A stretch of 64,000 nucleotides of DNA from Sphaerisporangium siamense (GTDB taxonomy: Bacteria; Actinomycetota; Actinomycetes; Streptosporangiales; Streptosporangiaceae). The notes beneath the pieces were generated by a model that was given only the letters and a program-made list of their open reading frames with translations, was not told the DNA's origin and searched no databases. The DNA lies in assembly GCF_014205275.1 (NCBI RefSeq), contig NZ_JACHND010000001.1, positions 1,302,001-1,366,000 of the forward strand, in the 5' to 3' direction. Position 1 is the stretch's first letter. The number at the start of each line of letters is the position of its first letter. Both the position numbers and the translations under genes were made by a program. Positions 30,290-46,473 of this stretch are shown piece after piece.

Positions 30290-30301
30290 GGCGGCGGCCT
30301 C

Positions 30302-30751
30302 CTAGAGCAGGAGCTCGAAGACGGAGATGGCGCGGTCCCATTCCTCGGCGGTGGGGTTCTTCCGGCCGGGATCGAGGATCTTGAACGTGCGGGCCAGGGC
30401 CAGTGAGAGACCGCCGACCACCTCCGGCAGCCGCTCCACCACCTCCGTGCCGAGGGAGCCGTTCAGCGGCGGGAACGCGGCGAGCCGCTCCAGGACGGGC
30501 GTGAGCGCGATGTCGTGGTCCAGTTCCCTGAACCGGTGGATGCTCTCCTGCAGGCCCTTGGTGACGGGCAGGTCCCACGGCTCCACGACGTCGCGGCCGT
30601 TGGCCTTGGCGTGGGCCTCCGCGATCACCAGCAGGTCGTAGAGCTTGCCGTTGACGAAGTCGTTGTAGCGCCGCAGGTCGGCCTTGTCCACGTCCAGACC
30701 CGCCGCCGCGCGAAAGAACCGCTCGAATCGCGGCACCGCCATGAGTACCAT
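30302..30751 (-). CDS. DUF1931 histone-fold protein
   Basis: A 149-residue protein of the DUF1931 family, whose known structures show two histone-like helical folds in one chain. Visible halves are RFERFFRAAAGLDVDKADLRRYNDFVNGKLYDLL and a second helix-strand-helix region ending in EEWDRAISVFELLL. It might bind DNA or form dimers, but that function is not shown for bacteria in general. ATG at 30751 is used; an internal ATG nine bases later is the alternative. It leads an operon with the phosphoribosyltransferase/esterase fusion. Confidence 0.82.
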   Translation of the reverse strand: MVLMAVPRFERFFRAAAGLDVDKADLRRYNDFVNGKLYDLLVIAEAHAKANGRDVVEPWDLPVTKGLQESIHRFRELDHDIALTPVLERLAAFPPLNGSLGTEVVERLPEVVGGLSLALARTFKILDPGRKNPTAEEWDRAISVFELLL

Positions 30752-30865
30752 GCGAGTTCCTTCCGACCGTGCTTCCCTGAGACTAAAAGCACCTCATATC
30801 CATCAATTCGGACATAGCTCGCTAAAGCTGACACTACGCCCCTCTTCTTGGCGTGGGGAAGGTGG

Positions 30866-32764
30866 TCAGAGCCTTCCGCCGGGGAAGTCGCCCGCGCGCG
30901 CCGCGGGCTCGCCGTGCTCGGCGCGGATGAGGTGGATCACCGCGTTGATCAGCGACAGGTGCGCGAACGCCTGGGGAAAGTTGCCCAGGTGCCGCCCGGT
31001 GAGCGGGTCGATCTCCTCGGCGTAGAGGCCGAGGGGGCTCGCGAAGGACACGAGCTTCTCGCAGAGGCGGCGGGCCCGGCACAGCTCCCCGATCTCGGTG
31101 AGCGCGGACACCAGCCAGAACGAGCAGATCGTGAAGGTGCCCTCCTCGCCCGGCATGCCGTCGTCGGTGTCCTTGGTGGAGTAGCGCAGCACGAGATCGT
31201 CCACGGTCAGCTCGCCGGCGATGGCCAGCACGGTGCTCCGGACGCGCGCGTCCTCCGGCGGCAGGAAGCCGACCAGGGGGATGAGCAGGAGGGACGCGTC
31301 CAGGGCGTCGGTGTCGTAGTGCTGGGTGAACGTCCCCCGCTCGCTGACCGCGCGGGCGCACACCTCGGCGTGGATCTCGTCGGCGACCGACTGCCAGCGC
31401 GCGGCCAGTTCGGTCTCCTCGCGCGTGCGCGCCAGGCGGGCGCCCCGGTCCAGCGCCACCCAGCACATGACCTTGGAGGAGGTGAAGTGCTTGGGTTCGC
31501 CGCGTACCTCCCAGATGCCCCGGTCGGGTTCCCGCCAGTGCTCGATGGCCGACTCGACCAGGCGCTTCAGGATGGGCCACATGCGCTGGTCCAGGCGGTC
31601 GCGGGACCGGGTGTGGATGTAGAACGACTCCAGCACCATCCCCCACACGTCGTTCTGGCGGTGCCGGTAGGCGGCGTTGCCCACACGCACCGGCCGCGCG
31701 CCGTCGTGGCCGTGAAGATGGTCGAGCACCCGTTCCTCCAGGTCGCGCTCGCCGTCCACGCCGTACACGACCTGCAGGTCCCGGTCGCGCTCGGCGACGT
31801 CGGCGGTGAACCAGAAGAAGTCGTCGGCCTCCCAGTCGAGGCCGAGCGTGTAGAGGCCCCAGAGCGCGAAGGTGGAGTCGCGGATCCAGCTGTAGCGGTA
31901 GTCCCAGTTCCGCTCGCCGCCGGGCGTCTCGGGCAGCGAGGTGGTGGGCGCGGCGACCAGGGCGCCGCTCGGGGCGAAGGTCAGGCCCTTGAGGGTCAGC
32001 GCGCTGCGCTCCAGGCATCCGCGCCAGGGATGGTCGGGGAAGCGGCCCCGGGCGAGCCAGTGCTGCCAGTGGTGCGCGGTCCACACCAGGCGGCGGTACG
32101 CCTCGTCGAAGGTGTACGGCGGCTCGTGCTCGGTCCAGGACAGCGAGCAGAACCGCGTCTGCCCCTGCTTCAGCAAAGTACGGGCCACGGCCCGCCCCTT
32201 CTCGAACCCCAGCCGCATGTCGGTGGTCAGCTTCAGCTCGATCGGCGTTCCCTCGGCGCGGGCGAGGCCCTGGTGGTAGCCGCGGTCGGTGTAGCACCAG
32301 TCGGCCGCCAGCCGGCCGTAGTCGAAGACCGGCTCGCAGTCGAGCGTGATCTGCGCCTCGCCGCTGACGCAGCGGACGGTCCGCAGCAGGACATGGTCGG
32401 CGTCGTAGTCGGTCGGCGCCCGCCGGTGGGTGCGGGACATTTCCCCGTGGTGGTGCCACGGGCCGATGAGCAGGAGGTCGCGGACGATGATCCAGCCGGT
32501 GGCCGTCCCCCAGCTCGTCTCCAGCACCATCGTGCCGGGCAGGTAGCGCCGCGCCGAGGGGACGGCGATGTCGGCGGGGCCGAGGCGGAAACCGCCCGCG
32601 CTCCGGTCGAGGATGGCCCCGAACACGCTCGGGGAGTCCAGCCGGGGCAGGCACAGCCATTCGATGTTCCCGCTCGGCGCGACCAAGGCCGTGACCTCAC
32701 AGTCGGAGAGGAAGCCGTAGTCGGCGATCGGAGGGAACACCGATTCTCCACGCGACGTGTCCAT
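30866..32764 (-). CDS. Glycoside hydrolase family 15 protein (glucoamylase/trehalase-like)
   Basis: A 632-residue cytosolic GH15 protein. The N-terminal beta domain begins with PPIADYGFLSDCEVTALV, followed by an (alpha/alpha)6 barrel with NWDYRYSWIRDSTFALW, the general acid region DRGIWEVRGEPKHFTSSKVM and the general base region LYAEEIDPLTG. Actinobacterial members of this type include trehalases and alpha-glucosidases acting on storage sugars. ATG at 32764 is preferred; a start 57 bp upstream adds only Gly/Arg-rich sequence. It lies directly upstream of the DUF1931 operon on the same strand, 114 bp away. Confidence 0.9.
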   Translation of the reverse strand: MDTSRGESVFPPIADYGFLSDCEVTALVAPSGNIEWLCLPRLDSPSVFGAILDRSAGGFRLGPADIAVPSARRYLPGTMVLETSWGTATGWIIVRDLLLIGPWHHHGEMSRTHRRAPTDYDADHVLLRTVRCVSGEAQITLDCEPVFDYGRLAADWCYTDRGYHQGLARAEGTPIELKLTTDMRLGFEKGRAVARTLLKQGQTRFCSLSWTEHEPPYTFDEAYRRLVWTAHHWQHWLARGRFPDHPWRGCLERSALTLKGLTFAPSGALVAAPTTSLPETPGGERNWDYRYSWIRDSTFALWGLYTLGLDWEADDFFWFTADVAERDRDLQVVYGVDGERDLEERVLDHLHGHDGARPVRVGNAAYRHRQNDVWGMVLESFYIHTRSRDRLDQRMWPILKRLVESAIEHWREPDRGIWEVRGEPKHFTSSKVMCWVALDRGARLARTREETELAARWQSVADEIHAEVCARAVSERGTFTQHYDTDALDASLLLIPLVGFLPPEDARVRSTVLAIAGELTVDDLVLRYSTKDTDDGMPGEEGTFTICSFWLVSALTEIGELCRARRLCEKLVSFASPLGLYAEEIDPLTGRHLGNFPQAFAHLSLINAVIHLIRAEHGEPAARAGDFPGGRL

Positions 32765-33006
32765 CTCGAAGCACCCCCGTGCGCCGGCGGGCGGCCCGGC
32801 AGGTCTCCCCCTAGCCACCAAACCCGGCTAAATCAGCATATATACCACCAAACCACCTACTCGGATCAGTGTCGCCCCGGGTCAGAGGGGTACGGCTTAG
32901 CGGTACACGAAGGATTCGCCGCGGGCCGGGGGACGACGCCCGGCGAGGGCGCGAAGGCGGCGCCCGGTGGATCGCATCGAGAATCACTCGGCCATGTGAG
33001 GTTCAC

Positions 33007-33927
33007 ATGAGCGAAGCAGATCACCACAGCGCTCAGCGCTGGGCCGGCGTCCTCGGATGGGTCAGCGCGGGCCTGGGCGTCCTCCAGGTCGCCGCGCCCG
33101 ACGCCGTCCTCCGGGTGATCGGCGTCGGGGACAGGCCCTGGGCCCGCCAGGTGGTGCGGCTGGTCGGCATCCGGGAGCTGTTCCAGGCCGCCGTCCTGCT
33201 CGGAAGCCGCAGGCCGGGCCCGCTGGTGTGGACCCGCGTGGCGGGCGACGCCATGGACCTGGCCCTGCTGGGCCGCCTGATGGCCGAGCCCGAGGACGGC
33301 GGCGGCCGGCGGCGTCTCGCCGCGAGCACCGCCGCCGTGACCGGCATCGCCTTCGCCGACATCGTCACCGCGGTGCGCGGCGGCCACGAGCCGGGCATCC
33401 CGTCGCACCACCTCACCAACCTGCGCGCGGCCACCACCGTCAACCGGCCGCGCCGGGAGGTCTACCGGTTCTGGCGCGACGTCGAGAACCTGCCGCGCTT
33501 CATGATCCACCTGGAGTCGGTGGAGCCGATCGCGGGCGGGTACTCGCACTGGAGGGCCAAGGGCCCCGCCCACAAGCGCGTCGAGTGGGACGCCGAGATC
33601 ATCGAGGACCAGACCGAGCAACTGATCGCCTGGCGGTCGGTCGAGGGCGCCACCGTGCGCAACCGGGGCTCGGTGCGCTTCACCGACGCCCCCGGCGGGC
33701 ACGGCACCGAGGTCCGGGTGGACATCGACTACGACCCGCCCGCGGGCAAGGTCGGCCTCGCCTTCGCCCGGCTGCTCGGCGAGCACCCCCAGCAGCAGGT
33801 GTGCGACGACCTGCGCCGGTTCAAGCAGGTCATGGAGGCCGGCGAGGTGGCCCGCTCGGAAGGCAGCCCCGAGGGCACGCGCGCCCGGCGGCAGCTCTTC
33901 CAGCGCCCCGCGCAGCCGGTGAGGTGA
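33007..33927 (+). CDS. SRPBCC (cyclase/dehydrase-like) protein with N-terminal membrane part
   Basis: A 306-residue two-part protein. Residues 1-130 contain three to four hydrophobic helices (WAGVLGWVSAGLGVLQV, LVGIRELFQAAVLL, AAVTGIAFADIVTAV). Residues about 140-290 are a START/Bet v1-type SRPBCC domain with RPRREVYRFWRDVENLPRFM, KGPAHKRVEWDAEII and ITW-like IAWRSVEGA. Such proteins bind hydrophobic ligands; the ligand is unknown. The gene is divergent from GH15 and 9 bp upstream of an alcohol dehydrogenase, with which it is co-transcribed. It is a common neighbour of stress genes in actinobacteria. Confidence 0.82.
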   Translation: MSEADHHSAQRWAGVLGWVSAGLGVLQVAAPDAVLRVIGVGDRPWARQVVRLVGIRELFQAAVLLGSRRPGPLVWTRVAGDAMDLALLGRLMAEPEDGGGRRRLAASTAAVTGIAFADIVTAVRGGHEPGIPSHHLTNLRAATTVNRPRREVYRFWRDVENLPRFMIHLESVEPIAGGYSHWRAKGPAHKRVEWDAEIIEDQTEQLIAWRSVEGATVRNRGSVRFTDAPGGHGTEVRVDIDYDPPAGKVGLAFARLLGEHPQQQVCDDLRRFKQVMEAGEVARSEGSPEGTRARRQLFQRPAQPVR

Positions 33928-33936
33928 GGAGGGACC

Positions 33937-35109
33937 ATGAAGGCCAACTGCTGGATGGGGCGCAACACGGTCGAGGTCCAGGAGGTCCCCGAGCCCCGGA
34001 TCATCAACCCGAGGGATGCCGTCGTCCGCATCACCTCCACCGCGATCTGCGGCTCCGACCTGCACCTGTACGACGGCTTCGTCCCGACCATGAAGAAGGG
34101 CGACGTCCTCGGCCACGAGTTCATGGGCGAGGTCGTGGAGGTCGGCCCCGGGGTCACCACGCTCCGGGTGGGCGACCGGGTCGTCGTCCCGTTCCCGATC
34201 GCCTGCGGCGGGTGCCTGGCCTGCGAGAACGGGCTGTTCTCCGTGTGCGAGAACTCCAACCCCAACGCGGGCATGGCCGAGAAGCTCCTCGGCCACTCCC
34301 CGGCGGGGATCTTCGGCTACTCCCACATGCTCGGCGGGTACCCCGGAGGCCAGGCGCAGTACGCCCGCGTGCCCTTCGCCGACGTCGGGCCGATCGTGGT
34401 CGACGACGACCTGCCCGACGACAAGGTGCTGCTCCTGTCCGACATCCTCCCCACCGGCTGGATGGGCGCCGAGATGTGCGAGATCAAGCCGGGCGACGTG
34501 ATCGCCGTGTGGGGCGCGGGCCCGGTGGGACAGTTCGCGGTCGCGAGCGCCCTGCTCATGGGCGCCGAGCGGGTGATCTGCATCGACCGCTTCCCATACC
34601 GGCTCCAGATCGCCGCACGCGCCGGCGCGGAGACGATCAACTACGAGCAGACCGACGTCCTGGACGCGCTGCGGGACATGACCGCGGGCCGGGGGCCTGA
34701 CGCGTGCATCGACGCCGTGGGCATGGAGGCGCACTACCCCGTCCCGGTCGTCCACGCCTACGACCGGGCCAAGCAGGCGACCCGGGTCGAGACCGACCGG
34801 CCGTACGCGCTGCGGGAGGCGATCCTGGCCTGCCGCAACGGCGGCATCGTCTCGGTGATCGGCGTCTACGCGGGCCTGGTGGACAAGTTCCCGATGGGCT
34901 CGTTGATGAACCGGTCGCTGACCATGAAGACGGGCCAGTGCCACGTCCAGCGGTACATGGAGCCTCTGCTGCGAAGGATCAGGGAGGGGGCGCTCGACCC
35001 CAGCTTCGTGATCACCCACCACCTGGACCTGGAGGACGCCCCGCGCGGCTTCGAGATGTTCAAGCACAAGGAGAACGAGTGCAACAAGGTCGTCCTGCAC
35101 CCCTGGTGA
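33937..35109 (+). CDS. Zinc-dependent alcohol dehydrogenase (formaldehyde-dehydrogenase-like)
   Basis: A 390-residue medium-chain dehydrogenase. The catalytic zinc motif [12 protein letters not shown] with CGSDLH (Cys38 region) and the structural zinc cysteines [15 protein letters not shown] are complete. The Rossmann loop is WGAGPVGQF. The long insert after the structural zinc and the [23 protein letters not shown] segment resemble glutathione-independent formaldehyde dehydrogenases. GAGGAGGGACC precedes the ATG. It is followed by a strong hairpin. Probable role: aldehyde/alcohol conversion under stress; the exact substrate is not visible. Confidence 0.9.
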
Positions 35110-35150
35110 CCGGAGACGCGCCCGCCCTGAGCGAAGGCGCGGGCGGGAGA

Positions 35151-35183
35151 ACGGTGGAGCCGATCGCCCCTCGGTTCCACCGT
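35151..35183. terminator. Hairpin terminator after the alcohol dehydrogenase
   Basis: ACGGTGGAGCCGA and TCGGTTCCACCGT pair over 13 positions with one G-U wobble around the loop TCGCCCC, 42 bp after the dehydrogenase stop. Confidence 0.75.
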
Positions 35184-35236
35184 CTTCCGTTCCATGTCCA
35201 CCCGCCGCACAGACGACCGATTCCGCCCGGCCCGGT

Positions 35237-35872
35237 TCCGGCATCATCCAGGCGTTCGGCACCGGGCACTCCCGCTCGTTCACCATGGAGATCGCCGGCC
35301 GCGCGGGCGGCCTGGTGCCCGCGAACCAGATCGCGATCAAGGATCTCGTCATGCACGGCGGCGCCGGCCCCGCCGAGATCCTCGACCCCACCAGCGAACG
35401 GGACCCCTCGCTCGCGCGGCGCATCTGGTCGCTGCACGACATCCGCGCGGACGACGTCTTCCTGATCGCCTCCAACTCCGGCATCAACGGCACGATCGTC
35501 GAGATGGCCAAGCTCGCACGGGCGAACGGCAACGCCGTCGTCGCGGTCACCTCCGTGGCGCACAGCATGACCACGCCCTCCCGGCACCCGTCGGGGCGGC
35601 GCCTGCTCGACGAGGCGGACGTCGTGATCGACAACTGCGGCGTGCCCGGCGACGCGGCCTACACGCCGGCCAACGGCGCCAAGATCGTCCCGACCTCGAC
35701 CATGACGAGCGTGCTCATCGCCCAGCTCATCACCGCGGAGATCTGCGCGGACCTGCTCGCGCGCGGCATCGCCCCGCCGGTCTATCTGTCCGCGAACATC
35801 CCGGCCGGCGACGACCACAACGAGCGGGTCCTGGCCAAGTACGCCGCCCGGATCCGCAAGAGCGAGCCCTGA
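35237..35872 (+). pseudogene. SIS-domain sugar isomerase, 5'-truncated remnant
   Basis: The frame encodes the C-terminal three quarters of a UPF0309-type SIS protein: RIWSLHDIRADDVFLIASNSGINGTIVEMAKLA is the sugar-phosphate-binding core. The only in-frame ATG (35285, giving 195 residues) lies after the phosphosugar loop AFGTGHSRSFT, yet homologous sequence clearly continues upstream to about 35237 (SGIIQAFGTGHS) without any start codon. The first 30-40 residues of the family are missing and the terminator of the preceding gene lies just in front. A shortened protein from 35285 could still be made but should be inactive. Confidence 0.6.
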
Positions 35873-36051
35873 CGGGCGTTGTCACAACCGCCGCGCGCGC
35901 CGCGCTCCGTGAACGCGCGACGCGAAAACGGCTTTGTCATGCGGCCGTAATTCCGGAACCCACCCGGTGCCGGAAATGAGGCACGAGCCCCCCAGGTCAC
36001 GGTGCCGGCCACCCGTGCGGCACCCGGCCGGGGAGCATGCGACCGAATTCG

Positions 36052-36130
36052 CGATACGGTCGGATCACCTGGTCCGTATCGTGCCGGGCGGGTGGCACGG
36101 GCGGCGCCACCGGCCGATGACCGCGATACG
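36052..36130. promoter_or_regulatory. CGATACG repeats, possible operator of the lanthipeptide operon
   Basis: An 8-bp perfect inverted repeat CGATACGG-N14-CCGTATCG (36052-36081) and a third direct copy CGATACG at 36124 lie 150-230 bp before the first precursor gene. No regulator gene is adjacent. Confidence 0.35.
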
Positions 36131-36218
36131 AATCGCATTCGGCATAACATTCGCTACACCTTCTCCCCATTCCCGTTCCAATAAATGGCGACAAAGCGGG
36201 ATCTGTAACTGGTGGCTG

Positions 36219-36246
36219 TTGATTTCGCGAAACATCCCGTTAACGT
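36219..36246 (+). promoter_or_regulatory. Possible promoter of the lanthipeptide operon
   Basis: TTGATT (36219-36224), a 16-bp spacer and TAACGT (36241-36246) resemble a weak sigma70-type promoter 36 bp before the first precursor ATG. Confidence 0.3.
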
Positions 36247-36281
36247 GGATCTGCACCACCAGGTCGCGAAGGGAGTAAGAA

Positions 36282-36470
36282 ATGCCAGTCACCCTGGAAC
36301 GCTCCGAACAGATCATCGCCGCGTGGCGCAGCGGCGCGGACGTCGACGGCTGGGAGAACCCCGCCGGTCCGCTCCTCAGCGAGTACGCCGAGTCCGAGAT
36401 CACCACCGCCTTCGGTGAGACGCGCAGACCCACCGCGTGCACCGGCGCCAACACCAACCCGTGCTGCTGA
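36282..36470 (+). CDS. Class II lanthipeptide precursor 1 (mersacidin-like leader)
   Basis: A 62-residue precursor. The leader has a helical RSEQIIAAWRSGAD part and the NPAG motif (residues 26-29) known from mersacidin/lichenicidin-type leaders. There is no GG/GA cleavage site. The C-terminal end after Arg48-Arg49 is PTACTGANTNPCC, with Thr51, Thr54, Thr58 and Cys53, Cys61, Cys62, i.e. three dehydratable residues for three thiols. Thr41, Thr42 and Thr47 lie before the Arg pair. GAAGGGAG precedes the ATG. A near-identical copy follows 215 bp later and then LanM, which should modify both. The cleavage position is inference. Confidence 0.88.
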   Translation: MPVTLERSEQIIAAWRSGADVDGWENPAGPLLSEYAESEITTAFGETRRPTACTGANTNPCC

Positions 36471-36496
36471 CCGACGAAGGCCGGAGGGAACAACGA

Positions 36497-36685
36497 ATGC
36501 CCGTGACCACCGAACGCTCCGAAGAGATCATCGCCGCGTGGCGCAGCGGCGCGGACGTCGACGGCTGGGAGAACCCGGCCGGTCCGCTCCTGAGCGCGTA
36601 CGCCGAGTCGGACCTGACGACGGCCTTCGTCGAGACGCGCAGGGCCACCGCGTGCAGCGGCTCCTTCACCCACCCGTGCTGCTGA
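36497..36685 (+). CDS. Class II lanthipeptide precursor 2 (mersacidin-like leader)
   Basis: A 62-residue paralogue of precursor 1. The leader including NPAG and Arg48-Arg49 is conserved, with differences at positions 5, 10, 34, 39, 40 and 45. The C-terminal part is ATACSGSFTHPCC, differing at 50, 54, 56, 57 and 59, but all three Cys and the hydroxyl residues 51, 54 (Thr to Ser) and 58 are kept; Ser56 is an extra one. The CGGAGGG site lies 8 bp before the ATG. It ends 19 bp before LanM. The pair could form a two-component lanthipeptide or two variants of one product. Confidence 0.88.
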   Translation: MPVTTERSEEIIAAWRSGADVDGWENPAGPLLSAYAESDLTTAFVETRRATACSGSFTHPCC

Positions 36686-36704
36686 CCGACGAAGGGTGAG
36701 AAGC

Positions 36705-39578
36705 ATGGCCGGGGACTTCGACCCGTCGCTCGACCACCTGACCGCCCCGGCGCTGCACAGGCTGTCGGCCGTACTGGCTTCGGTCCCCGGCCTCACGGCG
36801 GCGGAGGCCCGTGTGATCCACCGGGGCGCGGCGGAGGCGCTGGAGGAGACCGTCCGCCGCAAGGTGAACCGGGTCCTGCTGCTGGAGCTCAACGCGGCCA
36901 GGATCAGCGGCCGGCTGCGGGGCGCGACCCCCGAGGCACGGTGGCGCGAATGGAAGGCGACGGCCGCGACCCCGGAGTTCTGGCGCTCGCTGACCCCGCA
37001 CTACCCGACGATGCGGTCCCGGCTCGCCGTGATCGTCGCCAACCGGTGCGCCGCGGCCGAGGAGCTGGCCCGCAGGTTCGCCGCCGACCGCGCCGACCTC
37101 GCCGCACTGCCCGGCGCCCCGGGCGGCGAGCTGACCGAGGTCCGGTTCGGCGCCGGTGACAGCCACCGCGGCGGACGCGCGGTCGCCGTCCTGCACGGCT
37201 CCGGCGGGCGGGTGGTCTACAAGCCGCGATCCCTCGCCGTGGACCGCGAGCTGGCACGCCTGATCGCCCGCCTGGCGCCCGCGCTGCCCCACGGCGCCGT
37301 GATCCGCGTACCCGAGGTGCTCACCCGCCCGGACCACGGCTGGGCGGAGCACATCGCGCACCGCTACTGCGCCGGCGACGCCGAGCTGCGCGCCTTCTAC
37401 CGCGGCATCGGGCACTGGCTCGCGCTGATGCGCCTGGTCGGCGGCAGCGACCTGCACGCGGAGAACCTCATCGCGGCCGGGCCCGCGCCGGTCGTCGTCG
37501 ACTGCGAGACGCTGTTCACCCCGCACGCCGCCTCCAAGCCCTCCGGCCACGGCGCGGCCGTCGACCGCGCGTCCGAGCTGCTCATGGGGTCGGTGCTGCG
37601 CATCGGCCTGCTGCCCGGCCGCGGCGCCGCGCTCGGCTGGCGTGGCGTGGACGTCTCCGCCCTCGGCGCGCTGCCCGGCCAGCAGCCGCACGTGCGGGTG
37701 CCGGTCGTCGTCGACGCGGGCACGGACGCGGCCAGGCTGGGCGTGCGGCGCGTGGAGATGGCGGCGGCGGGCAACCACCCGAGCCCCGAACCCGTCCTCG
37801 CCCGCTACTGGGACCTGGTGCTGGACGGGTTCGCCGAGCTGTCAGGCCACCTGGACGCCCTGGACCGGCGCGGCGACCTCGGCGGCATGCTGGCCGGCTT
37901 CGCCGACCTCCCCGTCCGCGTGGTGCCGCGCGCCACCGAGGCGTACGCCGAGCTGGCCCGCATGCTCTGGCATCCCGGTTCGCTGCACGACGAGGCCACC
38001 GCGTGCCGGTCGGCGGCACGCCTGCTGGCCGAGCACGCGGACAACCAGCCGGGCACGCCGTCGGACCCCAAGGTCATAGACGCCGAGGTGACCGAGTTGC
38101 TGAACGGCGACATCCCCTTCTTCGCCACGACCCCGGCCCGCGGCCGCATGGACGGACCCGGCGGCACCGCGTGGGGAGAGGAACAGGACCTCATCGCGGA
38201 CGCGCTGCGGCGCTGGCGCGAGCGCGAGTCGGCCCTGGACCGCGACGTGATCCGCGCCGCGCTCGTCAGCGCCTACCTCAACGAGGGCTGGCTGCCGCGG
38301 ACCGCGCGGATGGCCACGCCCCTGATCCGGCAGGACGACCTGGACGGGCGCCGCCGCCGGCTGGCGGCGGGCATGGCGCGCCGCCTGCGGGACACGGCGG
38401 TGCGCGGCGACGACGGCACGGTGACCTGGATCGCCCCGGTGCTGACCGCCTCAGGATGGTCGGTGCAGTCGCTGACCGCCGACGTGTACGGCGGGGCGCA
38501 CGGGGTCGCGATCGCGCTGGCCGCCTACGTGGCCGAGACCGCGCGGGGCGAGGCCGACGAGGTGCCGGGGCTGGACCGGCTGCTGGCCGACCTGCTCCAC
38601 ACGATCAGGCTGGCCGAGGACCACGACGCCGCCCTGCGGCGCTCAGGGACGCCCCGCCGTCCCGACCCGCCGGGCGGATATGTCGGCATCGGCTCGTGGA
38701 TCTGGAGCTGGCTGCTGCTCGGCCGGCTCGGCGCCGTCCCGGACGACGAGGCCCTGGCCCGGGCGTGCGTGCCGGCCGAGGAGCTGCCCGCGGCGGTGGC
38801 GGCGGACGAGGTCTACGACCTGCTCGGCGGGATGGCCGGGGCCGTGGTGCCGCTGCTGCGCCTGGCCGGGCGCACCGGCGACGCGCGGTGGTCCACGCGG
38901 GCCCGCGAGATCGGCGATCGCCTCGTCGCGCTGGCCGCCGACGACGGCCGGGGGGCGCGCTGGCCCAACGCCGACAACCGGACCGGGCTCGGTGGCATGG
39001 CGCACGGCGCCACCGGGATCGGCTGGGCCCTCGCCCGGCTGGCCGACGCCGGGGTGCCCGGGGCCGCGCGGTTCGCCGCCCTGGCCGACCGGGCCTTCCT
39101 GTTCGAGGAGTCCCTGTACGACCCGGACGGGGACGGCTGGCTGGACCTGCGCGAGGCCGAGCCGCAGGTGACGGCCAGCGCGTGGTGCCACGGGGCCGGC
39201 GGCGTCGGCGTCGTCGCGGCGGACCTGCTGGCCCGGCACGCGTCCCCCCGGTGGCAGGACGTGCTGCGCCGCGCGGCGGCGTCCTGCTGGAAGCGCGGCA
39301 TGGGCTGGAACCACACGCTGTGCCACGGCGATCTCGGCAACTGGGAGGTGCTGGAGCGGGCGATCGACGCCGGCCTCGGCCCCGAGCGGCTGACCCGCGA
39401 GCACCTGTACGCGTACATGATCGGCACCGTGGAGGAGCACGGCCCGGTCACCGGCCTGGCCCGCGACGCCTTCACCCCCGGCCTGCTTCCCGGCGTGTGC
39501 GGCATGCTGTACCAGCTCCTGCGCGCCCGCCCCGGCGCCCCCCTGCCCTCGGTGCTGCTCCCCGACCCCGGCGCGTAG
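36705..39578 (+). CDS. lanM: Class II lanthipeptide synthetase LanM
   Basis: A 957-residue bifunctional enzyme. The N-terminal dehydratase domain (about 90-560) has a kinase-like active site: Lys173 in VVYKPRSLAVD, Asp249 and His251 in GGSDLHAEN, and Asp266/Glu268 in DCETLF; it phosphorylates and eliminates Ser/Thr. The C-terminal LanC-like cyclase (about 610-957) has zinc ligands Cys828 in WCHG and Cys873-His874 in LCHG, plus the MAHGATGIGW motif. ATG at 36705 is used, 8 bp after GAAGGG; a GTG at 36696 would overlap that site. It should form thioether rings in both precursors upstream. No transporter or protease domain is fused. Confidence 0.94.
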   Translation: MAGDFDPSLDHLTAPALHRLSAVLASVPGLTAAEARVIHRGAAEALEETVRRKVNRVLLLELNAARISGRLRGATPEARWREWKATAATPEFWRSLTPHYPTMRSRLAVIVANRCAAAEELARRFAADRADLAALPGAPGGELTEVRFGAGDSHRGGRAVAVLHGSGGRVVYKPRSLAVDRELARLIARLAPALPHGAVIRVPEVLTRPDHGWAEHIAHRYCAGDAELRAFYRGIGHWLALMRLVGGSDLHAENLIAAGPAPVVVDCETLFTPHAASKPSGHGAAVDRASELLMGSVLRIGLLPGRGAALGWRGVDVSALGALPGQQPHVRVPVVVDAGTDAARLGVRRVEMAAAGNHPSPEPVLARYWDLVLDGFAELSGHLDALDRRGDLGGMLAGFADLPVRVVPRATEAYAELARMLWHPGSLHDEATACRSAARLLAEHADNQPGTPSDPKVIDAEVTELLNGDIPFFATTPARGRMDGPGGTAWGEEQDLIADALRRWRERESALDRDVIRAALVSAYLNEGWLPRTARMATPLIRQDDLDGRRRRLAAGMARRLRDTAVRGDDGTVTWIAPVLTASGWSVQSLTADVYGGAHGVAIALAAYVAETARGEADEVPGLDRLLADLLHTIRLAEDHDAALRRSGTPRRPDPPGGYVGIGSWIWSWLLLGRLGAVPDDEALARACVPAEELPAAVAADEVYDLLGGMAGAVVPLLRLAGRTGDARWSTRAREIGDRLVALAADDGRGARWPNADNRTGLGGMAHGATGIGWALARLADAGVPGAARFAALADRAFLFEESLYDPDGDGWLDLREAEPQVTASAWCHGAGGVGVVAADLLARHASPRWQDVLRRAAASCWKRGMGWNHTLCHGDLGNWEVLERAIDAGLGPERLTREHLYAYMIGTVEEHGPVTGLARDAFTPGLLPGVCGMLYQLLRARPGAPLPSVLLPDPGA

Positions 39579-39925
39579 CCGGACGGCAAGCTGCTGCTGG
39601 AGACCGACCTTCGCCTCGGCCTCACCGAAGACGGCGGCGGGGCGGTGCCGGAAAGGGCGCGGGCGTCACTCCCGGCCCGGCTCCTGGTCCGTGGCGCCGC
39701 GCACCACGGCCACCGCGCCGGTGGCGGCGTCCGTACACCGTATGAGCGGAGTCCCCAGGTCACAGGATGCTCCCCCGCCGCGCGCCCGGGTCAGGGCCGA
39801 AGGTCACCGCGGCGGCGGACCTCCGGCCGGAGCCCGGCGCTGGTAGGGCGGGCGGAATACGGGGCAGGATCCAATGATCCCCGTCCTGAGGCGACGGTTC
39901 GCGGCGGGGACCTCGTGGAGGCGTC
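39579..39925. other. Intergenic region downstream of LanM
   Basis: This 347-bp stretch has no complete gene. The first 70 bp, read in the LanM frame, give a coding-like string (PDGKLLLETDLRLGLTEDG) directly after the stop, without a start codon; it may be a gene remnant. The rest shows nothing clear. Confidence 0.5.
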
Positions 39926-40267
39926 ATGAGCCAGGTCTGGTTGCTCGCGCTGCGCGGGCTGTTCGGCGGCCTGCTGGTGACGGCCTTCGCCCTGCTCGGC
40001 GAGATGGTGTCCCCGAAGAGGTTCGCCGGCATCTTCGCCGCGGGGCCCGCCGTGGCCCTGGCGGGGATGAGCATCACGGTGCTGCACGCGGGAAGCCGTC
40101 CGCTCGCCGACTCCGCGCTCGGCATGATCGTCGGGTCGGCGGCGCTGGTGGTCTACTGCGCCCTGGCCGTCCCTCTGGTGGGGCGTCTCGGCGCGGTCGC
40201 CGGCTCGGCGGCGGCGGTCGGGGTGTGGCTGGCCGTCGCGGGCCTCGGATGGTGGCTGATGCCGTGA
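39926..40267 (+). CDS. Small DUF3147-like membrane protein
   Basis: A 113-residue membrane protein with about four hydrophobic segments: LRGLFGGLLVTAFALLGEMV, GPAVALAGMSITVL, MIVGSAALVVYCALAV and GSAAAVGVWLAVAGLGWWL. The PKRFAGIFAAGPAVAL motif is typical of DUF3147-type proteins of unknown function. TGGAGG lies before the ATG. Its stop overlaps the GTG of a second protein of the same kind, suggesting a two-subunit complex. A role in export of, or immunity to, the nearby lanthipeptide is possible but unsupported. Confidence 0.72.
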   Translation: MSQVWLLALRGLFGGLLVTAFALLGEMVSPKRFAGIFAAGPAVALAGMSITVLHAGSRPLADSALGMIVGSAALVVYCALAVPLVGRLGAVAGSAAAVGVWLAVAGLGWWLMP

Positions 40268-40668
40268 GCGGGCGGGAGAGGATCCGGCTGCGCCCGTCCG
40301 GGGCGCGGTGCGCGCACCCGGCCGGCATGGCGCTGCGTTTCGCCTTCGGCGCGGCCATCTCGGTGGTCGCGGCCCTGGTCACCGACCGGTGGGGCCCCGT
40401 CACGGGCGGCGTGTTCCTCGCCTTTCCCGCCACCCTGGCCGCCACGCTGACCCTCATCGAGCACGAGGAGCACCGGCGCCTCCCGGTCGAGCAGGACGCC
40501 CGCGGCGCGGTGCTCGGCGCGGCGGGCATGATCGTGTTCGCCGTGTGCGTGTGGGCGCTCGCCACCCGGCTGCCCGCCGCGCTGGTCCTCGTGACCGCGA
40601 CCGTGGCCTGGGCACTGGTCGCCGTCGCCCTCTACCTGCTCTTCCAGGGGCGGCGCGACGGCGGGTGA
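40264..40668 (+). CDS. Small DUF3147-like membrane protein, second subunit
   Basis: A 134-residue relative of the preceding protein. After a basic N-terminus (GRERIRLRPSGARC) come four hydrophobic segments with FGAAISVVAALVTDRWGPVTGGVFLAFPATLAATL, equivalent to the PKRFAG...PAVAL region of its neighbour. GTG at 40264 overlaps the previous stop by 4 bp. Paired small membrane proteins of this type may form heterodimers with opposite topology; that is inference. Confidence 0.7.
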   Translation: MSGRERIRLRPSGARCAHPAGMALRFAFGAAISVVAALVTDRWGPVTGGVFLAFPATLAATLTLIEHEEHRRLPVEQDARGAVLGAAGMIVFAVCVWALATRLPAALVLVTATVAWALVAVALYLLFQGRRDGG

Positions 40669-40682
40669 CGCCCGCGGCGGGT

Positions 40683-41741
40683 TCAGCGGGCCGCTCCGGG
40701 GCGCAGGGCCGGGCCGGGGTGTTCGGCCGTGGCGAGCGGCAGGTGGATGGTCGCGGTGAGGCCGCCGGACGGCGCGGAGGTCAGGGTGACCTGCCCGGTG
40801 TGGGACTCCACGATGCCCCGGACGATCATCAGCCCGAGGCCGGAGCTGGACGAATAGGACCAGTCCGCGCGGCGCACGAGCTCCTCGGCGCGTTCGGGCG
40901 GGATCCCCGGCCCGTGGTCCTCCACCTGCGCGACGACCGTCGCCGCGTCCTGCCGCACCCGCAGGACGACCGGCGCCCGGCCGTGCCGCGTCGCGTTCTC
41001 CACGAGGCAGTCGAGCGCGGTCTCCAGCCGCTCCTCGTCGCCCACGACCGGGGCGGGGACGGTGTCCACGTGGATCGTGCCGTTCACCAGGGGCGCCCAG
41101 CGCCGGCCGACCCGCTGGACGAGCGTGCCGAGGTTCAGGACGCGGGCGCCCGCGCCGGGATCCTGGTGCGCCCAGGCCAGGGCGGACAGGCGGCCGGTGA
41201 TCCGGGAGAGCTTGTCCAGCTCCTCCACGACGACGCCCAGGTCCGCGGCCGGGTCGGAGTCGGCGCCCTCCACCTGGAGCATCTCGGCGTACCCCCGGGC
41301 GACGGTGAGCGGGGTGCGCAGCTCGTGGGTCGCGACCCGCACGAACCTCTCCGTCATCTCGTGCGCCAGGCGCTCGCGCGCGGCGGCCAGCCGGGCCTCG
41401 GCCGCCGCGGCCGTCCGCCACCGCACGTGCCAGACCATGACGAGGAACAGCAGGCACATCAGGGGGATCTCCGCCGTCTCCTCGAAGGCGATGACCTCGG
41501 AGCTGGCGTGCCAGTACAGCGGCACCCCCGTCGCCGCGGCGACGGCCAGGCAGACCGCGAGGGTGGCGGGCATCGGCCACGGCCGCACGCCGTACACCAG
41601 CGCGAACGAGATCCAGACCAGGTGGAAGGGGATGGTCTCGGCGCCGGGGAGTATCCACATGAGCGTGGCGTTGACCGTGGCGAAGACCGCCCAGGCCGGG
41701 ACCGCCCAGCGCGCCGCCCGCGTCAGGTCAGCCCGCGACAA
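40683..41741 (-). CDS. Sensor histidine kinase
   Basis: A kinase of about 352 residues with four N-terminal hydrophobic segments (residues about 10-100) instead of a large sensor domain. The HisKA box is VATHELRTPL with phospho-acceptor His139, the N-box CLVENATRHG, G1 DHGPGI and G2 SGLGLMIVRG. No ATG or GTG start is available near the first helix; a TTG at 41741, 14 bp inside the response-regulator gene, is the best start. It forms a pair with that regulator. The input may be a membrane or small-molecule signal. Confidence 0.85.
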   Translation of the reverse strand: MSRADLTRAARWAVPAWAVFATVNATLMWILPGAETIPFHLVWISFALVYGVRPWPMPATLAVCLAVAAATGVPLYWHASSEVIAFEETAEIPLMCLLFLVMVWHVRWRTAAAAEARLAAARERLAHEMTERFVRVATHELRTPLTVARGYAEMLQVEGADSDPAADLGVVVEELDKLSRITGRLSALAWAHQDPGAGARVLNLGTLVQRVGRRWAPLVNGTIHVDTVPAPVVGDEERLETALDCLVENATRHGRAPVVLRVRQDAATVVAQVEDHGPGIPPERAEELVRRADWSYSSSSGLGLMIVRGIVESHTGQVTLTSAPSGGLTATIHLPLATAEHPGPALRPGAAR

Positions 41742-42393
41742 AGCTGTAGCCCACGTTGCGGATGGTCTCGATGGAGTCGGCGCCGAGCTTGGCGCGCAGC
41801 CGCCGCACGTACACGTCCACCACGTTGCTGGCGGCGTCGAAGGCGTGCCCCCACACGTCGGTGAGCAGTTCCTCGCGCCCGCACACGTCCCCGGCGCGGC
41901 CCATGAGGTGGCTGAGCAGCACGAACTCGCGTTGCGTGAGCTGGACGCTGCGGCCGGGGAGCTCGGCGGTGCGGCGGTGCGGGTCGAGGGCGACCTGCCC
42001 GGCCCTGATGCAGCGCCGGGCCGCCGCGGGCGCGGGCTCGGCCGCCCTGATGCGTACCCGGGCCACGAGCTCGGCGAGCGCGAACGGCTTGGCGAGGTAG
42101 TCGACGGCGCCATGGGCGAAGCACTCGACCTTGGCGGCGACGTCGCCGATGGCGGACAGGACCAGGACGCGCTGGTCGGGGCGCCGGGCGAGCATCTGCC
42201 GCAGCACGTCCACGCCGCCGAGCCGTGGCAGCATCAGGTCCAGTACGACCAGCGCGAACTCCTCGGCGTCCGCGAGCAGGAGGGCCTGCTCGCCGGTTCC
42301 CACGGTCCGGACGACGTGGCCGTCGCGTTCCAGGGCGCGCGAGACGAACCTGCAGATCCTCGGCTCGTCGTCCACGACCATGATCCGGGGCAT
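41728..42393 (-). CDS. OmpR/PhoB-family response regulator
   Basis: A 221-residue regulator. The receiver domain has acidic VVDDEP (7-12), phospho-acceptor Asp52 in VVLDLMLP and Lys in LAKPF. The C-terminal winged helix spans about 125-221 (LTQREFVLLSHL...DAASNVVDVYVRRLRAKLG...IRNVGYSF). It partners the overlapping sensor kinase. The pair is preceded by the terminator at 42649 and a short secreted peptide gene on the same strand, so that peptide could be co-regulated. Confidence 0.92.
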   Translation of the reverse strand: MPRIMVVDDEPRICRFVSRALERDGHVVRTVGTGEQALLLADAEEFALVVLDLMLPRLGGVDVLRQMLARRPDQRVLVLSAIGDVAAKVECFAHGAVDYLAKPFALAELVARVRIRAAEPAPAAARRCIRAGQVALDPHRRTAELPGRSVQLTQREFVLLSHLMGRAGDVCGREELLTDVWGHAFDAASNVVDVYVRRLRAKLGADSIETIRNVGYSFVAG

Positions 42394-42648
42394 CCAAGCT
42401 CCACGAGACTCAGCGGCGCCCTTTGCCCGACAACGCCGTCCGCTCCCTACGTCTCGTGTGTACCGCCCCTGATCAAGACCGGCAAGCATCCGGCTACGCC
42501 CCATATGGACGAGGTGTCTGACCTGGGGTGAAATGAGGTCAATCTGACAGTCAGATGACGGAGTCGTCATCTCCCGTGCCCCAGAAGGCACGGCCCCGGC
42601 ACGAACGGCGCGGACGGGCCCGCCGGAACGGGCTTCCCGGACATGCGA

Positions 42649-42678
42649 AAACGCCCGGATATCGATATCCGGGCGTTT
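42649..42678. terminator. Perfect 15-bp hairpin terminator
   Basis: A fully palindromic element with arms 42649-42663 and 42664-42678, starting AAACGCCC and ending GGGCGTTT. It lies 38 bp downstream of the small secreted peptide gene and ends its transcript; short A and T runs on both sides allow either direction. Confidence 0.85.
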
Positions 42679-42716
42679 CTCGTGGGCGTGCGGGGGACGG
42701 GGTCCACCCGGACGGG

Positions 42717-42875
42717 TCACACGTCCATGCACCACATCCAGCCGTGGCCGCTGACCCAACAGCGGTACCACTCGTTGGGCATGGCGTTGGCCGGGGCGCT
42801 CGTGGCGGCGAAGGCGGCGCCGGCGAGGGCGACCGTGGCGGTCAGCGTGGCGACGCGGCGGGTGATCTTGCGCAT
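42717..42875 (-). CDS. Short secreted Trp/Cys-rich peptide
   Basis: A 52-residue precursor. Residues 1-31 are a signal peptide (RKITRRVATLTATVALAGAAFA, predicted end SAPANA). The mature peptide of about 21 residues is short, has four Trp and two Cys (Cys8 and Cys18 of the mature part, in RCWVSGHGWMWC), so a disulfide loop is expected. A CAGGAG site 6 bp upstream supports the ATG at 42875. It has its own terminator. No family is recognised; role as signal, antimicrobial or surface peptide is open. Confidence 0.75.
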   Translation of the reverse strand: MRKITRRVATLTATVALAGAAFAATSAPANAMPNEWYRCWVSGHGWMWCMDV

Positions 42876-42957
42876 CAGATCTCCTGAGGTCTCGTGGGGC
42901 GAACACCTGAAGTCAACCAACGGCGTCTTGGACCGCTCTTGGAGATCACTGCAGCGC

Positions 42958-45285
42958 TCACCGCCCCTGCGGCTCCGGCCAGGTCCAGTCGCGGACCTCC
43001 GGGGCGTCCTCGCCGTGGTCGCGGGTGTGGGCGCGTGCCCGGAGGCGGGCGTCCGACATGCGCTGCCGCAGGTGGGCGGCGGTGACGCGCAGGCCGGGGA
43101 CGCGGTCGACGACGTCCATGACCAGGTGGTAGCGGTCGATGTCGTTGAGCATGGCCATGTCGAAGGGGGTTGTGGTGGTGCCCTCCTCCTTGTAACCGCG
43201 CACGTGCAGGTTGGCGTGGCCGTTCCTGCGGTAGGTGAGCCGGTGGATCAGCCACGGGTAGCCGTGGAAGTTGAAGATCACCGGCTTGTTCGTGGTGAAA
43301 AGGGCGTCGAACTCGGCGTCGGGCATGCCGTGCGGGTGCTCGGTCGGCGGCTGGAGTCGCATCAGGTCCACGACGTTGATCACCCGGACCCGCAGCCACG
43401 GCAGGTGCTCGCGCAGCAGCGCGGCGGCGGCCAGGGTCTCCAGCGTGGGCACGTCCCCGGCGCAGGCCAGCACGACGTCCGGCTCCTGCCCCGCGTCGTT
43501 GCTCGCCCAGTCGATGATGCCGAGGCCGCGGGCGCAGTGCGTGACCGCCTCCTCCTCGCCGAACAGGTCGAGCACGGGCTGCTTGCCCGCCACGACCACG
43601 TTGACGTAGTCGCGGGAGCGCAGGCAGTGGTCGGCCACCGAGAGCAGCGTGTTGGCGTCCGGCGGCAGGTACACGCGCACGACGCTCGCCTTCTTGTTGA
43701 CGACGACGTCGAGGAACCCGGGGTCCTGGTGACTGAAGCCGTTGTGGTCCTGACGCCAGACGTGCGAGGACAGCAGGTAGTTGAGCGAGGCGACCGGCCG
43801 CCGCCAGGGGATGCGCCGGCTCGCGTCCAGCCACTTGGCGTGCTGGTTGAACATGGCGTCGACGATGTGGATGAACGCCTCGTAGCAGGTGAACAGGCCG
43901 TGCCTGCCGGTGAGCAGGTAACCCTCCAGCCAGCCCTGGCACAGGTGCTCGCTCAGCACCTCCATGACCCGCCCGCCCTCGGCCAGGTGCGCGTCGGTGG
44001 GCAGGGCCTCCGCGTGCCAGGCCCGGTCGGTGACCTCGAAGACGGCCGACAGCCGGTTGGAGTCGGTCTCGTCCGGCCCCATGAGGCGGAACGTCCGCGG
44101 GTTGGCGGCGATCACGTCGCGCAGGAACCGGCCGAGGACGCGGGTCGGCTCGGTGAACGCGGCGCCGGGCGCGGGCACCGCGACGGCGTGGTCGCGGAAG
44201 TCGGGCAGGACGAGGGGGCGCAGGATCTCGCCGCCGTTGGCGTGCGGGCTGGCGCTCATGCGCAGGGGACCCTCGGGGACGGTCTCCAGGATCTCGGCGA
44301 CCGGGCGGCCGTCGGCGTCGAAGAGCTCGCCGGGCCGGTAGGACCGCATCCACTCCTCCAGCATGGCCAGGTGCGCGGGGTTCTCTCGGACGGCGGCCAG
44401 CGGGACCTGGTGGGCGCGCCAGGTGCCCTCCACGGGGAGGCCGTCGACCTCGCGGGGGCCGGTCCAGCCTTTGGGGGTGCGCAGCACGATCATCGGGAGC
44501 CGGTCGGCGCGGCCGTCCTTGTAGGCGGCGATCTCGTCGAAGACCGTGTCCAGCGTCTGCGCCATGAGCGCGTGCATGGTCGTGGGGTCGTCCCCTTCGA
44601 CCAGGTACGGCCGGTAGCCGTACCCCTCCATGAGCTTGACCAGGTCCTCGGAGGGGATCCGGGACAGCACCGTCGGGTTCGCGATCTTGTAGCCGTTGAG
44701 GTGCAGGATCGGCAGGACGACCCCGTCGCGGCGCGGGTCGAGGAACTTGTTGGAGTGCCAGCTCGCCGCCAGCGGGCCCGTCTCGGCCTCGCCGTCCCCG
44801 ATCACGCACGCGACCACGAGGCCCGGGTTGTCGAAGGCGGCGCCGTAGGCGTGGGCCAGCGAGTAGCCCAGCTCGCCGCCCTCGTGGATCGAGCCGGGCG
44901 TCTCCGGGGCCACGTGGCTCGGGATTCCGCCAGGGAAGGAGAACTGGCGGAACAGGCGGCGCATGCCCTCGGCGTCCTGCGAGACGTCGGGGTAGCGGTC
45001 CGAGTAGGCGCCCTCCAGCCAGGCGTGTGCCACCGCGGCGGGGCCGCCGTGACCGGGCCCGGCGATGTAGATCATGTCCTGGTCGCGCTCGGCGATGACC
45101 CGGTTGAGGTGGGCGAAGCAGAAGTTCAGCCCGGGAGTCGTGCCCCAGTGACCGAGCAGGCGCGGCTTGATGTGCTCCGGCTTCAACGGCTCGGTCAGCA
45201 GCGGGTTGTCCAGCAGGTAGATCTGGCCCACGGCGAGGTAGTTGGCGGCGCGCCAGAAGGCGTCGATTCTCTCAAGGGCGTCCAT
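42958..45285 (-). CDS. xfp: Xylulose-5-phosphate/fructose-6-phosphate phosphoketolase
   Basis: A 775-residue thiamine-diphosphate enzyme. Typical regions are [38 protein letters not shown], the ThDP-Mg loop [31 protein letters not shown] and [11 protein letters not shown]. It splits xylulose-5-phosphate (or fructose-6-phosphate) with phosphate to acetyl-phosphate and a triose/tetrose phosphate. The gene is divergent from a DevR-like regulator with a palindromic GGGACC box 36 bp upstream of its start, so it is likely induced under low oxygen. The nearby acyl-CoA synthetase fusion could link acetyl-phosphate/acetate to acetyl-CoA. Confidence 0.95.
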
Positions 45286-45320
45286 GAGATGATCGTCGCC
45301 TGAGCCGAACGCCGAGGTAA

Positions 45321-45334
45321 GGGACCTTGGTCCC
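45321..45334. promoter_or_regulatory. DosR-like box between xfp and devR
   Basis: GGGACCTTGGTCCC is a perfect palindrome that matches the mycobacterial DosR consensus core (GGGACTTTAGTCCC type). It is centred about 40 bp from both divergent start codons. Confidence 0.75.
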
Positions 45335-45371
45335 TACCCGGCAGGGGCCATGGCGGCATAAATTCTCGTAC

Positions 45372-46013
45372 ATGATTCGCGTATTCCTTCTCGATGACCA
45401 CGAGGTCGTCCGGCGGGGCGTCGCCGCCCTGCTGAACACCGAGGACGACATCGAGGTGATCGGCGAGGCCGGCACGGCCGAGTCGGCCATCGCGCGCATC
45501 CCGGCGCTGCGGCCCGACGTGGCCGTCCTCGACGTCCGCCTGCCCGACGGCAGCGGCGTCGACGTGTGCCGCGAGGTGCGCTCACGGCTGCCGGGGCTGG
45601 CGTGCCTGATGCTCACCTCCTTCGCCGACGACGACGCCCTGTTCGACGCCGTCATGGCGGGGGCCTCGGGGTACGTGCTCAAGCAGATCCACGGCTCGGA
45701 CCTGGTCGGCGCGGTCCGCACGGTCGCGGCGGGCCAGTCCCTGCTCGACCCGCAGACCACCGCCGCGATGCTGCAGCGGCTGCGCGACCAGGCCGCCAGG
45801 AAGGACCCCCTGGCCGCGCTGTCGGACCAGGAGCGCCACATCCTCGAACTCATCGGCGAGGGGCTGACCAACCGGCAGATCGGCGAGCGGCTGTTCCTCG
45901 CCGAGAAGACCGTGAAGAACTACGTGTCGAACCTGCTGGGCAAGCTCAGCATGCAGCGCCGCACGCAGGCCGCCGCCCTGGCGGCGCGGATGAAGGCGGA
46001 ACGGCACGAGTGA
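45372..46013 (+). CDS. devR: DevR/DosR-like NarL-family response regulator
   Basis: A 213-residue regulator. Receiver residues are Asp8/Asp9, Asp54 (AVLDVRLPDG), Thr82 and Lys104, in the same numbering as M. tuberculosis DosR. The C-terminal LuxR-type HTH reads LSDQERHILELIGEGLTNRQI, then FLAEKTVKNYVSNLLGKL and RRTQAA, very close to DosR in the DNA-reading helix. ATG at 45372 is the start that gives this alignment. It should bind the GGGACC boxes of the region, including its own promoter, and be driven by the double-GAF kinase at 46474. Confidence 0.9.
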   Translation: MIRVFLLDDHEVVRRGVAALLNTEDDIEVIGEAGTAESAIARIPALRPDVAVLDVRLPDGSGVDVCREVRSRLPGLACLMLTSFADDDALFDAVMAGASGYVLKQIHGSDLVGAVRTVAAGQSLLDPQTTAAMLQRLRDQAARKDPLAALSDQERHILELIGEGLTNRQIGERLFLAEKTVKNYVSNLLGKLSMQRRTQAAALAARMKAERHE

Positions 46014-46014
46014 A

Positions 46015-46031
46015 GTGACTTTCGTCCCTGA
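46015..46031. promoter_or_regulatory. DosR-like box upstream of the PNPOx-like gene
   Basis: GTGACTTTCGTCCCTGA, directly after the devR stop, fits the DosR consensus GGGACTTTNGTCCC with one mismatch, 35-51 bp before the next ATG. Confidence 0.65.
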
Positions 46032-46065
46032 ACGCGAGACCACTCGGCGGAAGACCCTTGATGTC

Positions 46066-46470: not shown

Positions 46471-46473
46471 GGA

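Follow-up and report, generated by a model that had tools for sequence, protein, structure and literature searches.

A 64,000-nucleotide stretch of the Sphaerisporangium siamense genome (contig NZ_JACHND010000001.1, positions 1,302,001 to 1,366,000; hereafter the window) carries two small tandem precursor genes directly followed by a gene for LanM, a class II lanthipeptide synthetase. We interpret these three genes, with a probability of about 0.8, as a minimal class II lanthipeptide cassette that would yield modified small bridged peptides, depend on the host for leader removal and export, and have spread between genera. It is an ordinary system class in a trimmed, exporter-poor and probably mobile variant. 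Both precursors belong to the DUF6229 family, and their cores follow a motif that recurs beside related LanMs. A cysteine (Cys) that forms a ring in the family member rhodanocin is absent throughout their branch, and no homologous exporter lies next door. The products may have antibacterial or signalling activity.

The locus and its synthetase

The two precursor open reading frames (ORFs) and the LanM gene lie head to tail on the forward strand, exactly where the initial annotation had placed them. Its description of two tandem precursors directly before a complete LanM was confirmed, as the ORFs are present and their family scores lie far above the cut-offs (DUF6229, Pfam PF19740, 25 bits; TIGR03897, 304 bits; Table 1). 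Ribosome-binding-like purine runs were read in the DNA ahead of all three start codons, namely AGGGAG (36270–36275) before the ATG of precursor 1 at 36282, GGAGGG (36483–36488) before that of precursor 2 at 36497, and GAAGGG (36691–36696) before the LanM ATG at 36705. An alternative LanM start is GTG 36696 (960 amino acids, aa); because MAGDFDPSLD, which begins at ATG 36705, is conserved across 12 aligned LanMs, a length of 957 aa is the probable one. The TTGATTT element upstream of the cassette was common to all 10 upstream regions aligned from the branch of 12 loci described below, and a general sigma-70 promoter scan of 35800–40000 returned zero sites. The S. siamense genome (8.5 Mb) contained a single match to the window LanM (E up to 0.001) and two DUF6229 genes; no tRNA gene was found in the window.

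Table 1. Features of the cassette in the window
Feature	Position	Strand	Remarks
Conserved upstream block TTGATTT...TTAACG	36219..36245	+	putative promoter or other regulatory element
Precursor 1, 62 aa, core end TACTGANTNPCC (3 Thr, 3 Cys)	36282..36470	+	DUF6229 63.5 bits
Precursor 2, 62 aa, core end TACSGSFTHPCC (4 Ser/Thr, 3 Cys)	36497..36685	+	DUF6229 67.4 bits
LanM, class II lanthipeptide synthetase	36705..39578	+	TIGR03897 530.7 bits; DUF4135 + LANC_like

The G+C content of the window is about 73% and its ORF list is crowded, which would favour the idea that the small ORFs arose by chance and that only LanM is real. Against this, the DUF6229 matches lie far above the cut-off, ribosome-binding-like sites stand ahead of the precursors, and such precursors occur beside LanM in all 12 branch loci; the chance explanation was already refuted by the DUF6229 matches and this co-occurrence and keeps a probability close to nil.

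LanM is bifunctional, with a dehydratase region at residues 103–478 and a cyclase region at 594–954 (960-aa numbering from GTG 36696), and it resembles the solved structures of LicM2 (6st5, E 6.6e-59) and CylM (5dzt, E 1.9e-19). The dehydratase residues and three zinc ligands noted in the initial annotation are present: K176, D252, H254, N257, R412 and T414 of the dehydratase region, as well as C831, C876 and H877, were invariant in an alignment of the window LanM with 11 relatives. The last three are the proposed zinc ligands; their role and the putative roles of the dehydratase-region residues are transferred from work on CylM and NisC. The assignment to class II is likewise supported by DUF6229, TIGR03897, the LanM domains, the active-site conservation and the similarity to LicM2 and CylM. 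Between the window and the sister genome G007, nonsynonymous (dN) and synonymous (dS) divergence of LanM were 0.037 and 0.114, respectively (ratio 0.32); for precursors 1 and 2, dN was 0.076 and 0.059 and dS 0.192 and 0.143. In all three genes dN lies below dS, which counts in favour of a working cassette, with few sites in the precursors.

Precursor family and core motif

DUF6229 proteins were described as class II lanthipeptide precursors in 2022, with rhodanocin, LanII of Dyella sp. 333MFSha, in the main-text portions of PMC9576775. Because the window precursors belong to this family, their cores are, judged by sequence, a shortened branch of a known motif and not a new kind of core. The earlier proposal of a new core type survives to the extent that no characterised peptide with the shortened core turned up in the literature searched (titles, starts of abstracts and portions of main texts), and the window cores are not given in the main-text portions of PMC9576775 or PMC11451712; it fails on the DUF6229 membership and on the occurrence of the motif in five phyla. 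The mersacidin-like leader was not upheld, since no mersacidin or lichenicidin model in Pfam or NCBIfam matched the precursors at E up to 0.1.

DUF6229 was detected in 36/345 genomes of the order and in 6/394 genomes of a class-wide draw (S. siamense included in both), and in five of the 10 other genomes of the genus; the locus is also present in Sphaerisporangium melleum, rufum, album and fuscum. We collected 85 LanM loci, comprising 80 of 139 relatives found by alignment search of named genomes, two Embleya loci, Nonomuraea gerenzanensis, G007 and the window, and spanning Actinomycetota, Pseudomonadota, Myxococcota, Acidobacteriota and Verrucomicrobiota. DUF6229-type precursors were present in 79 of them; four of the six precursor-less loci (L132, L133, L138 and L140) are cut just upstream of LanM, and the real misses are L128 and L137. 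Of the 87 distinct 30-residue tails, 78 terminate in Cys-Cys, and these carry [ST] at -12 in 69 cases, Cys at -10 in 64, [ST] at -9 in 74, Ser at -7 in 60 and Thr at -5 in 44. The core motif [ST]xC[ST]xSxTxxCC was found beside related LanMs in five phyla; TACSGSFTHPCC fits it, and TACTGANTNPCC carries Ala at -7 in place of the Ser of the motif.

Other core types also occurred in the collection. In Rhizohabitans arisaemae, outside the window branch, a single LanM is preceded by a tandem array of seven DUF6229 precursors that differ in their cores (L031:8935-10775). In two Dyella, Rudaea and a Micromonosporaceae metagenome-assembled genome (L120, L123, L124, L121), DUF6229-type precursors beside same-family LanMs have quite different core ends (CT[CQ]GTx[IV]HDNCCN; CCPM, CCVM, CCMI). 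Precursors beside LanM in Saccharothrix, Catenulispora, Kitasatospora and Streptomyces (L100, L102, L107, L144, L145, L147, L149, L150, L152-L156) carry CSSC or CSSPSGS cores on the same leader family.

Absence of the upstream cysteine and predicted rings

A LanM tree of 81 rows was built with a quick method and Shimodaira–Hasegawa-like approximate likelihood ratio test (SH-aLRT) support only; it omits L115 and L143, which extend past the ends of their contigs, as well as L138 and L140, where the precursors fall beyond the edge. The window fell into a branch of 12 rows (support 100) from Sphaerisporangium, Microbispora, Streptosporangium, Spongiactinospora and Nonomuraea aurantiaca, and the neighbouring clade comprised 8 rows from Nonomuraea and Planomonospora. 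The upstream Cys, at the position of rhodanocin Cys8, is absent in all 14 distinct tails of the branch, and Ser(+3), at the position of rhodanocin Ser14, is absent in 8 of the 14, including precursor 1. Outside the branch, 52/63 anchored tails have a Cys 2–5 residues before the anchor Cys, and a Ser three residues after the anchor was present in 50/52 tails with this Cys and in 4/11 without it; six of the 69 outside tails, L131 among them, could not be anchored and were dropped from the count. By raw counts the coupling of this Cys with Ser(+3) outside the branch is strong, but it loses significance once the tree is taken into account and serves as support only. The upstream Cys is absent clade-wide, and a relaxation of its Ser(+3) partner is suggested. 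On the tree, the presence of the exporter showed no significant association with that of the upstream Cys.

The Cys count never exceeds the Ser/Thr count in the 14 branch tails. With three Cys and three or four Ser/Thr left among the last 12 residues of each window precursor, three thioether rings per peptide are likely. In the mechanism that we propose, LanM would recognise the DUF6229 leader of both precursors, phosphorylate and eliminate Ser/Thr of the last 12 residues, and then add the three Cys to them, one enzyme serving both substrates. By position relative to the nuclear magnetic resonance (NMR) structure of rhodanocin, one of the two terminal Cys would be bridged by the Ser/Thr that immediately follows the first core Cys, and the other probably by the Thr at -5; the first core Cys would probably pair with the Thr located two positions upstream of it. 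The rhodanocin ring Ser14-Cys8 would be unable to form, the Cys being gone and, in precursor 1, the Ser too. Host proteins encoded elsewhere in the genome would remove the leader and export the products, and the cassette would pass between Streptosporangiaceae genera as precursors plus LanM. The computed monoisotopic [M+H]+ of the last 12 residues after three dehydrations is 1101.391 for precursor 1 and 1159.412 for precursor 2 (1141.401 after four); after a GluC cut behind the Glu before TRR, it is 1611.694 for TRRPTACTGANTNPCC (precursor 1) and 1643.699 for TRRATACSGSFTHPCC (precursor 2).

Probable horizontal movement of the cassette

The nucleotide identity of LanM was 97.1% between Microbispora amethystogenes and Spongiactinospora, 97.7% between M. 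amethystogenes and Streptosporangium carneum, and 98.2% between S. carneum and Spongiactinospora, whereas the longest aligned piece of an rpoB stretch gave 90.0, 90.2 and 90.8% for the same pairs (7 of 10 genomes matched in the rpoB search, one with only a short piece, so that six were compared). Because precursors and LanM reach 97–98% identity across genera with about 90% identity in the rpoB stretch, horizontal spread of this minimal unit between Streptosporangiaceae genera is strongly indicated. The window LanM was 79.2% identical to that of Sphaerisporangium melleum, a member of the same genus, while the S. melleum gene was 96.6% identical to that of S. carneum. The comparison took in about 9 kb of flank to either side, except for 2 kb on one side in M. 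amethystogenes, and in M. amethystogenes, S. carneum and Spongiactinospora sp. the cassette was the only similar stretch longer than 200 bp. The block shared by these three genera runs from roughly 150–400 bp before the precursor to 30–70 bp after LanM; between S. pseudovulgare and both S. melleum and S. rufum, a few further short similar stretches lay elsewhere in the flanks. The flanks of the window and G007 are shared at 93–95% identity, and the cassette is therefore settled in these two genomes.

A plasmid was considered as the vehicle, since the Spongiactinospora record is titled as one, and rejected; rpoB lies on the same contig, which is probably chromosomal. The cassette edges showed neither a transposase nor a repeat, although no systematic search for them was made. 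The S. siamense genome itself has two rpoB-type genes (307-1560 and 8320487-8321740) that are 92% identical to each other, and G007 likewise has two.

One or two peptides

In each of the 12 branch loci, one or two precursors adjoin LanM, so that the neighbourhood whose absence from close relatives the initial annotation had named as evidence against its proposal is present throughout. Two precursors were found in six loci (the window, G007, S. melleum, M. amethystogenes, M. triticiradicis and N. aurantiaca) and a single one in the other six. At the nucleotide level, precursor 1 was 90.3% identical to precursor 1 of G007 and precursor 2 was 92.5% identical to its counterpart there, whereas the two window precursors were 87.1% identical to each other. 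Each is closer to its G007 counterpart than to the other, indicating that the pair predates the split of these two genomes.

The earlier note had left open a two-component product or a diversified family. An obligate two-component lantibiotic like haloduracin or roseocin, in which each peptide is needed for activity, would agree with the presence of two precursors, the orthologous pair kept in G007, and the pairs in S. melleum, two Microbispora and N. aurantiaca. We consider it very improbable, as half of the branch loci have one precursor and the two peptides are thus not consistently kept together in relatives, R. arisaemae has seven outside the branch, and the two window genes are near-copies. 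The partners of known two-component lantibiotics generally have dissimilar cores. For roseocin, diverse cores are described in the abstract of PMC10027976. The diversified family fits better, and we read the pair as a tandem duplication with diversified cores.

Export, leader removal and the case for a working cassette

Of the 72 tree rows that extend more than 2 kb past LanM, 25 have a homologous ABC exporter directly after it on the same strand. This exporter was present in 8/8 loci of the sister clade vs 1/12 of the window branch, only in N. aurantiaca (the search covered homologs of this exporter). An exporter is probably also present in L105, where the ORF starts beyond the distance rule; it lies after LanM on the opposite strand in four Embleya loci, and an ORF in the flanks of two Microbispora loci matched the exporter queries weakly (E 1e-9 to 1e-10) and was not counted. 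No C39 domain was found in three exporters scanned against Pfam, and the best NCBIfam matches of two exporters were MsbA models, below cut-off. The best S. siamense match to the N. aurantiaca exporter was 46% identical vs 62–69% for copies beside a LanM or DUF6229 gene; 28 ABC matches at E up to 1e-20 exist in this genome, any of which could serve as exporter. A LanT with a C39 peptidase beside the locus was rejected as a candidate, as the two C39 transporters of the genome lie about 0.23 and 1.7 Mb away with no apparent link to the locus; cut pieces of them matched best an NHLP exporter model, below the cut-off, which the cutting may explain. Rough gene calls of 16 loci plus the window were clustered, and no gene family besides LanM and the precursors was common to most branch loci.

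Such findings could also mean that the cassette is a decaying remnant that has lost its exporter, protease and immunity and no longer makes its product. The lack of a homologous exporter beside LanM in 11/12 branch loci, the 46% identity of the best homolog in S. siamense, and flanks that by the rough gene calls share no family beyond the cassette in most branch loci all agree with decay. LanM and both precursors are nevertheless intact, LanM has a dN/dS of 0.32 against G007, its active-site regions are invariant, and near-identical intact copies exist in several genera, which makes decay improbable. A working minimal cassette with host leader removal and export accommodates these observations better.

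Several points weigh against that working cassette and its predicted products. The search next to LanM was limited to homologs of one exporter kind, and N. aurantiaca, which has the exporter, is nested inside the branch, so that the absence is not a clean single loss. There is no evident route to leader removal, as the precursors show no double-glycine site and the scanned flanking genes near the cassette include no protease. Ser(+3) persists in 6/14 branch tails despite the absent Cys partner, indicating that the coupling of these residues is not strict; the tree holds only five independent pairs, in none of which the two traits run counter to each other, and the sign test did not reach significance (median p 0.5). 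The ring pattern is taken over from rhodanocin by position only, with residues of two of its rings missing, and the branch is known so far from its genes.

A joint reading would combine these traits: a self-contained, horizontally mobile cassette of precursors plus LanM alone, selected without dedicated exporter, protease or immunity gene, whose very densely bridged core of 10–12 residues has its effect in or at the cell that makes it, such as a signalling role, and is not a secreted bacteriocin. We regard this as rather unlikely; if true, four rings would fit into the ten residues of the SSCTCSRFCC form.

Neighbouring genes

Two DUF3147 membrane-protein ORFs (39926-40267 and the next ORF) directly follow LanM. 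They lie in the flank shared with G007, outside the block shared with other genera, and a role for them is possible in the window and its G007 sister alone. A gene for a SIS-domain sugar isomerase at 35285-35872 lacks about the first 55 positions of the family model; a 97% identical copy exists only in G007, beside the cassette, and a copy of about 50% identity in all 10 other genomes of the genus and in S. siamense itself, in S. album (G006) about 5 kb from LanM. Near the locus, a response-regulator family is shared by S. siamense, G007 and G074, and the SIS-isomerase family by S. siamense and S. album. The cassette is embedded in a run of stress or dormancy-type genes (28286-48171) that includes a phosphoribosyltransferase-erythromycin esterase fusion, DUF1931, GH15, a zinc alcohol dehydrogenase, a phosphoketolase, a LuxR response regulator, a pyridoxamine oxidase-like protein and a GAF histidine kinase. 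The run resembles a DosR-type regulon, and the flanking stress-type genes (phosphoketolase, LuxR regulator, GAF kinase, GH15) have no evident role in the pathway.

Comparison with known systems

These results link a widespread, almost uncharacterised precursor family to a structurally solved relative and provide a ring prediction. The branch is a natural experiment in which a ring-forming Cys is absent clade-wide and its Ser partner is lost in some paralogs and kept in others. It also offers a genus-crossing cassette that works, if at all, mostly without linked export, and the short cores, with Ser/Thr at least equal to Cys, would be compact templates for peptide engineering.

The mersacidin/lichenicidin group shares with the window the class II, LanM-made type; the window precursors match none of its family models. 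TxTxEC is the lipid II motif of that group as given in PMC7268733, and direct reading found it in neither window core. The sister clade in Nonomuraea and Planomonospora (cores SG[KR]CGTACSxSxTxxCC) has the same leader type and terminal motif, with LanMs 57–61% identical, but retains the upstream Ser and Cys and the exporter in all its loci. In Lysobacter, 21/27 unique class II precursors were DUF6229 members, and six precursor sequence families were described (2024; main-text portions of PMC11451712); the DUF6229 members share precursor family and enzyme class with the window, the six core families being compared by description only.

Rhodanocin is the closest reference. Expression of the refactored Dyella cluster in E. 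coli yielded the modified DUF6229 precursor, whose rings were solved by NMR, giving the bridges Thr6-Cys11, Ser14-Cys8 and Thr12-Cys23 within a 23-residue fragment (main-text portions of PMC9576775). We took these positions from the text of that paper, not from a published sequence, and set them by eye against the window cores. Luteibacter precursor L131 has, in alignment by eye, all seven residues numbered for rhodanocin at their spacing, whereas the bridging set (Thr6, Cys8, Cys11, Thr12, Ser14, Cys23) does not occur at this spacing in the window peptides. Like rhodanocin, the window combines a DUF6229 precursor with a class II synthetase and, by position, shares the Cys-[ST] step, along with a C-terminal Cys that would close the ring begun at the [ST] after the first core Cys. 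Unlike rhodanocin, both window peptides lack the equivalents of Cys8 and Thr6, precursor 1 also lacks that of Ser14, and the core comprises about 12 residues ending in Cys-Cys, compared with the 23-residue fragment of rhodanocin.

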